From contig JAGQJJ010000164.1 in the NCBI GenBank assembly GCA_020430675.1, forward strand, positions 1 through 7,670: a stretch of 7,670 nt of DNA, given 5' to 3'. The position numbers and the translations under genes are program-made. Shown here piece after piece: positions 2,476-5,588 of the stretch (the stretch's first letter is position 1; each line of letters opens with the position of its first letter). Source of the DNA: Myxococcales bacterium (GTDB taxonomy: Bacteria; Myxococcota; Bradymonadia; UBA7976; UBA1532). Below the pieces are notes generated by a model. The model worked only from the letters and a program-made list of their open reading frames with translations. It made no database searches and was not told where the DNA came from.

Positions 2476-4170
2476 CTACCTGCGCCTGCGGATGAAGACA
2501 CTCACGGCGATCAACACCCCCAGCAGCGCGGGCGCGCCGCGGTAGCCGGGGGTGGCGGCGCAGGCGAGGGGTTCGCCTTGCAGCGCGGCGCTGCCCGGCG
2601 GCGGCGGAATGTCGGCTGACTCTTCGCAGGCGCCGCCGTCGACACCGCACGGGGCCGGGGCAGGCAGATCGGCCGGCACCAGCGCGGCGTCGGGCGCAAC
2701 TTCGGCGTCGACCTCGCCCTCGGGCGCGGCCCACTCGGCGTCGACGGCGGTTGGCATGGGCTCGGCGTCGGGCATCTCTTCGACCGGCGGTTCTTCGACC
2801 GGCGTCTCCTCAAGCCCGGCATCGACTTCGATGGCGCCCTCGCCGTCGTCGGCGCCTTCGGGGTCCATTGGCCCCGGTTCGACCACGACCCGCGTGAGGC
2901 GCACGGCGTCGGCGAGGATGTGCTGGTCGGCGGGCACGTTGCCGGCGGCGTTGTCGAACAGGTCGACGCTCTGGTCGGCGCCGGCGGCGAAGGTAAAGAT
3001 GCCGATCGATTGCCAGCCATCGACCGCCGACTGGTCGACCTGGATCGGCGTGCTCTCGCCGTCGTGGCGCACGGCGTAGCGGGTGCGGGCGAAAACCCCG
3101 AACTCGCCGCCGGTGCGCACCTCGACCTCGTAGTCGCCCGCTTCGGCGAGGTCGAGCGTCCAGCGCGCCCAGTTGGCGGGATCGGCGGACGAGAAGGCGT
3201 TGGTCCACATCAGGCTGCCGCCCTGGCCCTGGCCGGTGACGGTGCGCCAGGTCGCTTCGGGCCCATAAGCGCGGAAGCACGGGCCGCGCTCGTCGACCAC
3301 TCCTCCTTCGGCTGGGACCGCGGCGCAGGGGGCCGGCCGGATGCGCACCGCGTCGGCGACGATGTGCCGGTTGGCCGGCACCGCGCCTTCGTTGTTGTCG
3401 AAGACATCGACATACTGATCACCGTCGGCGGCGAACCGGAAGGTGCCCAGATTCAGCCAGTTGCCTTCGCGCGACTGGTCGATGTGCACCGTTGAGCTCT
3501 GGCCGGCGTGGCGTACGCGGTAGCGCACCGAGGTCCAGGCGTCGGCCATGCCGCCGGTGCTGATGGCGACCTCGTAGAAGCCGGCCTGCTCGAAATTGAG
3601 CTGCCAGCGCGCCCAATTGCTCGGCTCAGCCGAGGTCCACACATTCGTCCAGCGCAGGCCGCCGCCGTGGCCGATGCCGTCTTCGCGCCGCCAGAACTGC
3701 GCGGGGCCGTTGGCCTGGAAGCACGGGCCGCTGTCGTCGAGCGTCTCGCCGCCGGCGCCGATGACCGCGCAGGGCGCGTCGAGGCAGACGCCGCCGCCGG
3801 GGCCGCCGCCCCACCACTCCCAATGCCAGTCTTCGCTGGGCACGGTGCGCGAGAAACCGAAGCGAGCGCCGTTGCGGTTGAGCCACCCGAGCACGCCCCC
3901 GGCGCTGGTGTTCAGGTCGAGCGCGTGGCCGCTCTGGTGATTGCTGAAGCCGGGGCGCGCGGCCAGGTTGCAGTTGTTGCAGTTGCAGTTGACGTAGCAG
4001 TTGTACAGGCGCTGCTGCTCGGCGTTGGTGCGAAAGCCGCTGACGATGCGGATGGCCACGCCATCGGCGGCGGCGGCCTGCTGCATGACCCAGTAGGCGT
4101 TGGCCGTCTCGCGCTCGACGGGCTTGCCGTCGGCGGTGACCACGGTGATGGGGAAGGGCTCGCCGCGCAC
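2476..4170 (-). CDS. VanY-type D-Ala-D-Ala carboxypeptidase with two golvesin-like domains and a MYXO-CTERM-like tail
   Basis: This is the open part of the gene, from the first usable downstream start (GTG 4170); residues are numbered from it. Residues 20-120 are an M15B/VanY zinc peptidase that would trim D-Ala from peptidoglycan stem peptides. SGFR is at 44-47, the SxHxxGxAxD motif at 76-85 gives zinc ligands His78 and Asp85, and ExxH at 113-116 gives catalytic Glu113 and ligand His116. An Asn/Cys-rich loop (YNCYVNCNCNNCN, 56-68) precedes the motif. Two homologous segments follow, 148-279 and 296-427, each running from GPCF to ADAVR. They match the golvesin C-terminal-like (xanthan-lyase CBD-like) beta-sandwich, probably carbohydrate-binding. 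Residues 430-535 are acidic and Pro/Glu/Ala-rich. The C-terminus has a Cys at 537, a hydrophobic helix (about 546-560) and four Arg, like MYXO-CTERM sorting signals. The GTG start leaves no export signal; a proper start and signal peptide lie upstream but are cut off by an in-frame TGA (see the 4171-4338 entry). Confidence 0.9.
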   Translation of the reverse strand: MRGEPFPITVVTADGKPVERETANAYWVMQQAAAADGVAIRIVSGFRTNAEQQRLYNCYVNCNCNNCNLAARPGFSNHQSGHALDLNTSAGGVLGWLNRNGARFGFSRTVPSEDWHWEWWGGGPGGGVCLDAPCAVIGAGGETLDDSGPCFQANGPAQFWRREDGIGHGGGLRWTNVWTSAEPSNWARWQLNFEQAGFYEVAISTGGMADAWTSVRYRVRHAGQSSTVHIDQSREGNWLNLGTFRFAADGDQYVDVFDNNEGAVPANRHIVADAVRIRPAPCAAVPAEGGVVDERGPCFRAYGPEATWRTVTGQGQGGSLMWTNAFSSADPANWARWTLDLAEAGDYEVEVRTGGEFGVFARTRYAVRHDGESTPIQVDQSAVDGWQSIGIFTFAAGADQSVDLFDNAAGNVPADQHILADAVRLTRVVVEPGPMDPEGADDGEGAIEVDAGLEETPVEEPPVEEMPDAEPMPTAVDAEWAAPEGEVDAEVAPDAALVPADLPAPAPCGVDGGACEESADIPPPPGSAALQGEPLACAATPGYRGAPALLGVLIAVSVFIRRRR

Positions 4171-4338
4171 GTAGCCGGTGTCCTGCCGTTCGGCGCAGTC
4201 GACGATGGCCTGTTCGAGCGTCGAGACCAGCGTCTCTTCGTCGGCGCCGCCGCCGAGGCAGGTGTCTTCACCGCCGACGTCGAGGTCGCCGCAACCGATT
4301 CACAAGCCGAGAAAGTTGAAGAGGGCGAGGCGGCGCAT
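4171..4338 (-). pseudogene. Disconnected lipoprotein signal peptide and N-terminus of the VanY-type peptidase (in-frame TGA)
   Basis: ATG 4338-4336 has a strong Shine-Dalgarno (GGGAGG, 4350-4345) six bases upstream. It opens MRRLALFNFLGL, then TGA (4302-4300), then in the same frame IGCGDLDVGGEDTC and a further 42 or so sense codons running straight into the peptidase at 4170. Positive charges, a hydrophobic core and an IGC lipobox are exactly a lipoprotein signal peptide. Changing the TGA to TTA would give LIGC, a perfect lipobox. I infer that the true gene is 2476-4338 (about 620 codons) and that a nonsense mutation or a single base-call error interrupts codon 13. If the base is real, the enzyme is either not made or is made without export from GTG 4170, and the gene is effectively a pseudogene. 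Confidence 0.7.

Positions 4339-4481: not shown

Positions 4482-5588
<1,107 letters not shown>

Follow-up and report, generated by a model that had tools for sequence, protein, structure and literature searches.

An in-frame TGA in the putative signal peptide of a VanY-type carboxypeptidase gene from a Myxococcales bacterium: probably a recent inactivation or a sequencing error

Results

The window, by which we mean the whole stretch of DNA analysed (7,670 bases, GC-rich), carries on its minus strand a gene of about 1.86 kb with a TGA in frame close to its start. A Shine-Dalgarno-like GGGAGG (4350-4345) is separated by a 6-base spacer, CCATGG, from an ATG at 4338-4336, and the codons from this ATG read MRRLALFNFLGL, ending at the TGA at 4302-4300. 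These twelve codons (4303-4338, the ATG included) correspond to the start of a signal peptide and most of its hydrophobic core, with a similar N-terminus in homologues. Directly after the TGA the frame continues with IGCGDLDVGG and stays open for 607 sense codons (4299-2479) up to a TAG at 2476-2478, the natural stop of the gene. Reading the minus strand thus bore out the earlier note on this DNA, which had described a strong Shine-Dalgarno sequence followed by this same succession of start, stop and resumed frame. Export of the signal peptidase II type depends on an uninterrupted signal peptide with a lipobox cysteine; a lipobox-like Cys codon stands third after the TGA (4291-4293), and the TGA lies inside the signal peptide. 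There is no homopolymer at the TGA. The next in-frame ATG, GTG or TTG downstream of it is GTG 4170 (4168-4170), which has an AGGA 10 bases upstream, a longer spacer than usual; the 1.7 kb that the note had given as the length of the gene fits the part from this GTG and not the gene from ATG 4338. A start at ATG 4342, in a neighbouring frame that closes soon and is Arg-rich by eye, was rejected.

Just downstream of this gene, at 1804-2395, is a toxin-antitoxin pair made up of a HicA toxin (PF07927) and a HicB-like antitoxin (PF15919), while a Svf1_C lipocalin-like protein (PF17187, by Pfam) is encoded at 4482-5588, all on the minus strand. Among the matches listed, the latter has 60 other relatives at 46-63% identity, the nearest at 63%, and the five that name an organism are from Myxococcota or Myxococcales, as far as the abbreviated names show. 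Five other genes of the window were checked (those for a beta-helix protein, a PhyH-like protein, the HicB-like and Svf1_C lipocalin-like proteins and an ABC1/UbiB-like protein); TGA is the terminator of all five, and none contains a stop before it. The HicA gene, outside this count, ends in TAA by eye.

In the post-stop frame, Pfam places a VanY-type carboxypeptidase domain (PF02557) at residues 61-164 (3808-4119; E 7e-16, 58.6 bits against a cut-off of 25) and Golvesin_C (PF25275) in two stretches (2890-3720; E 2e-36), the second at residues 348-470 and the first with a start estimated from the alignment. Numbered from codon 4299, H121, D128 and H159, which we take to be zinc ligands as in the VanY/LdcB family, and E156, presumably the catalytic base, are invariant in an alignment of 20 sequences (the gene and 19 chosen homologues), as are C101 and C107 of the Cys-rich VanY part. 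The claim that an uninterrupted frame leads into an intact VanY domain with its zinc ligands is therefore upheld, as far as these residues are the ligands. Nine solved sequences match (E 1.8e-5 to 8e-4), most of them named D-alanyl-D-alanine carboxypeptidase, DacB or LdcB. The curated models were far from reached: the LdcB/DacB model NF041194 gave 39.1 bits against a cut-off of 275, and the best of the NCBIfam vanY glycopeptide-resistance models, vanY_BG, 32.4 bits against 400. By these models the protein is no vancomycin-resistance VanY, and 'VanY' serves here as the name of a domain family only. Taken together, the domains suggest a family of surface peptidoglycan carboxypeptidases. The protein resembles the VanY-type carboxypeptidases (PF02557; members LdcB/DacB and VanY) in having the domain above the Pfam cut-off and in keeping the presumed metal-site residues, but it adds the Golvesin_C stretches and a MYXO-CTERM-like tail and stays below the named NCBIfam cut-offs.

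That tail (2479-2562) consists of a Cys, a hydrophobic stretch and RRRR. The three-part MYXO-CTERM layout is present by eye, but in profile scoring the last 74 residues missed both curated cut-offs (TIGR03382, 15.6 bits against 15.85; TIGR03901, 16.6 bits against 20), and a similar score was obtained with Heimdall-CTERM (17.0 against 24). The C-terminal Cys, hydrophobic stretch and Arg cluster are shared with the MYXO-CTERM surface proteins of Myxococcota (TIGR03901, TIGR03382), described as myxosortase substrates (PMC11980579), and homologues of the gene likewise have a signal peptide. Unlike those proteins, this one has a tail just below both cut-offs and an N-terminus broken by the TGA.

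In the homologue search, 7,995 candidates sharing most words were scored and 627 passed, of which 119 were listed besides the window's own sequence. Hydrophobic N-termini and lipobox-like cysteines were counted by simple rules of our own rather than by a signal-peptide program: a hydrophobic N-terminal stretch was found in 116 of the 119, ending in a lipobox-like Cys in 98 (102 by a looser rule). The 21 homologues lacking a lipobox by the stricter count are a mixture of cases. The rule missed an evident lipobox in P0055, P0056 and P0073; roughly twelve others, P0012, P0013, P0022 and P0117 among them, resemble signals of the ordinary cleaved type, P0036 is truncated at its N-terminus and P0014 is without a signal. 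None of the 119 begins at or after the column of GTG 4170, and the comparison of N-termini that the earlier note had proposed thus revealed no native start equivalent to that codon.

The stretch between the TGA and GTG 4170 (4171-4299, 43 residues, with a DCxERxDTGY motif) is conserved as coding sequence in the alignment and in a pairwise comparison, in which 17 of 26 residues were identical to homologue P0002 (E 2e-8, a single comparison). The third-codon Cys after the TGA falls opposite the lipobox Cys in 19 of the 19 homologues aligned. These were chosen by hand out of the 119, and the invariance holds for the chosen set; passed over among the best 20 were P0006, P0012-P0014, P0016 and P0020, several of them without a lipobox by our rule. 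By rule, a hydrophobic C-terminal tail is not clearly present in two of the chosen homologues, P0004 and P0023, and their aligned C-terminal Cys means little. Judged from these alignments, the stop sits inside an ancestral gene and the stretch upstream of GTG 4170 is conserved coding sequence. Among the matches listed, the closest homologue over the full length is 59% identical, and partial matches reach 85% over 21%; on genome contigs the longest match has 65% identity and shorter ones up to 84%, and 72,556 plasmid records held no match.

Related DNA loci, found by protein, belong by title to Myxococcota or 'Deltaproteobacteria' assemblies. Twenty of the 21 loci read are open by eye from the putative start to the core, the exception, L016, being frameshifted, and an in-frame stop between start and core was found in none of the 21. 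In L016 (Nannocystis pusilla Na p29) a one-base length difference at about 2865-2870 puts the signal peptide and the VanY core in different frames; this was seen by comparison with four related loci, the fourth of which, L006, aligns poorly there. A second VanY copy in the same genome (G019:C2:7103221-7103657) is split over adjoining frames. Both the frame difference and the split copy are probably consensus errors of that assembly.

Beyond the TGA, the absence of decay claimed in the earlier note held good. No second stop occurs in the 607 post-TGA codons, and the protein matches at all 54 of the 54 columns with 95% or higher conservation in the others, a comparison of little power, as 68 of the 119 homologues keep them all too. 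Third-position GC is 0.90, against 0.83 to 0.94 in five neighbouring genes, and GC by codon position is neighbour-like. Under free drift, the absence of another stop bounds the divergence since the event to less than about 0.04-0.06 substitutions per site (95%), or, with frameshifts assumed at one per 15 substitutions, to about 0.015-0.017; the lesion, if real, is therefore young.

In the table of 65 matches on genome contigs, stops were counted in the aligned parts only, which mostly begin after the signal peptide. The only match with an internal TGA was G012:C292:9793-10533, in the Golvesin part. At least two matches over the VanY part were counted from this table in 12 of 19 related genomes, so that the loss of one copy appears plausible and tolerable.

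Discussion

We report an in-frame stop that stands within a conserved gene showing no other decay. This copy of the gene was probably either broken recently or misread in sequencing, and both are ordinary events. On a slightly better than even chance, we read the locus as a surface lipoprotein gene of Myxococcota type whose signal peptide is interrupted by a single nonsense codon, both real and recent. The intact gene type would encode a lipobox signal peptide, a VanY-type peptidoglycan carboxypeptidase domain, two Golvesin_C stretches and a MYXO-CTERM-like tail. Translation from ATG 4338 would end with release of a 12-residue peptide and yield no exported enzyme. The gene would then be a young pseudogene, or a null allele at strain level, and may be dispensable since further copies of the enzyme are common in such genomes. 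The good ribosome-binding site ahead of the interrupted frame, the N-terminus kept in homologues and the five neighbouring genes without an internal stop all suggest a real allele. Against it stand the lone contig and the lack of a close relative among the matches listed, and an error would account just as well for the signs of recency. As in bacterial pseudogenes and null alleles with a single nonsense codon, there is one in-frame stop and the rest of the gene is open; unlike in that class at large, the lesion here is indistinguishable from a sequence error.

Such an error, whether of sequencing or assembly or through a minor-strain base in a mixed consensus, would leave the gene of the organism itself intact, and we put it at somewhat less than an even chance; this estimate, like that for a real allele, is a matter of judgement. 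The lesion is single. The protein of the gene (P0001, the GTG-started open reading frame) clusters with no other sequence and comes from one contig of 7,670 bases, so that the window is probably an entire metagenome contig; this suggests that the organism is rare and its coverage perhaps thin. The likely consensus error in the related assembly of L016 points in the same direction. On the other hand, the 6,858 coding bases counted would be expected to contain about 0.017 false stops at an assumed 1e-4 errors per base and 0.0017 at 1e-5, the TGA lies outside any homopolymer and the five other genes checked are unbroken. Pseudogenes make up a few per cent of bacterial genes, and those with a single lesion are a small part of these; spread over about seven genes, this gives a prior of similar size to the expected false stops. 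With the gene known from one contig and no close relative among the matches listed, a true nonsense mutation of recent date is inseparable here from an error in the sequence.

It is far less probable that the UGA is decoded at a useful level, by a near-cognate, suppressor or selenocysteine tRNA, and that the exported lipoprotein is still made; we consider this very unlikely. UGA is described as the stop most prone to leak, readthrough in Salmonella and Escherichia coli being put at 1e-2 to 1e-3 or more (PMC4989110), and a tRNA-Sec scored above cut-off in 7 of 13 related genomes. It did so in 5 of 14 control genomes as well; at E <= 0.001 the tRNA was found in all 13 and all 14, and only matches above the cut-off were counted. 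The machinery thus exists in the group, which by itself decides nothing, and in the genome of the closest locus found (G001, completeness not stated) the best tRNA-Sec reached 43.7 bits against a cut-off of 47. Further evidence speaks against decoding. Three stretches folded at the TGA, two of them beginning with it and the third 6 bases earlier, were no better than shuffles (z 0.07, 1.10 and -0.38), no Rfam family reached its gathering score in the window, and none of the 98 homologues counted has Cys at the -3 lipobox place, where the residues are L, A, V, F, I, M, G, S, T or P. Folds, Rfam and alignment accordingly gave neither a SECIS hairpin after the UGA nor Cys or Sec at the site in homologues, the marks of a selenoprotein, and with no fold, no Rfam match and no such Cys we set selenocysteine and programmed readthrough aside. 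The related loci, L016 being frameshifted, also have no in-frame stop at all between start and core, and TGA ends each of the five other genes checked. The last observation led us to reject a reassignment of TGA to sense. More remote still is a leaky gate, in which rare decoding of the signal-peptide UGA would yield a trickle of surface carboxypeptidase and the level of export would be set by UGA decoding and not by promoter strength. The interpretation in the earlier note, which offered recent inactivation, sequencing error or readthrough, is supported as far as it can be tested. For readthrough itself, nothing specific speaks apart from the fact that UGA is leaky in general.

Equally improbable, in our view, is true use of GTG 4170, or of some other start downstream, with a cytoplasmic product and an upstream piece that is relic or chance. 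The mechanical list of open reading frames and the protein collection both give the frame from this GTG, and the AGGA 10 bases ahead may allow weak starts there despite its longer-than-usual spacer. Yet none of the listed homologues starts at this position, conserved coding sequence lies upstream, and the Cys-rich VanY part and MYXO-CTERM-like tail fit an exported protein. All 35 MYXO-CTERM proteins of the laboratory strain of Myxococcus xanthus are said to carry signal peptides (PMC11980579), so a non-exported form would be out of place. Homologue starts and upstream conservation together led us to reject GTG 4170 as the native start. That only an unexported form could be made from it, as had been proposed, agrees with the position of the GTG inside the conserved core, and annotating the gene from that codon gives a truncated protein that differs from the homologues listed.

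Should the stop be real, as we slightly favour, it would add another young null allele of a surface peptidoglycan enzyme, in a group where several copies per genome are common; should it be an error, it would show that a single wrong base in one contig is enough to conceal a lipoprotein. Searches of the open-access literature, from which we claim no absence from print, found no related report on nonsense codons in the lipoprotein signals of metagenome assemblies and, by title, nothing useful on golvesin with VanY or Myxococc.

A separate observation concerns the homologues themselves. By crude rules, 56 of the 119 listed combine an N-terminal lipobox-like Cys with a C-terminal MYXO-CTERM-like tail of Cys, hydrophobic stretch and basic residues. 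A putative lipidation site at each end of one protein would be worth checking.
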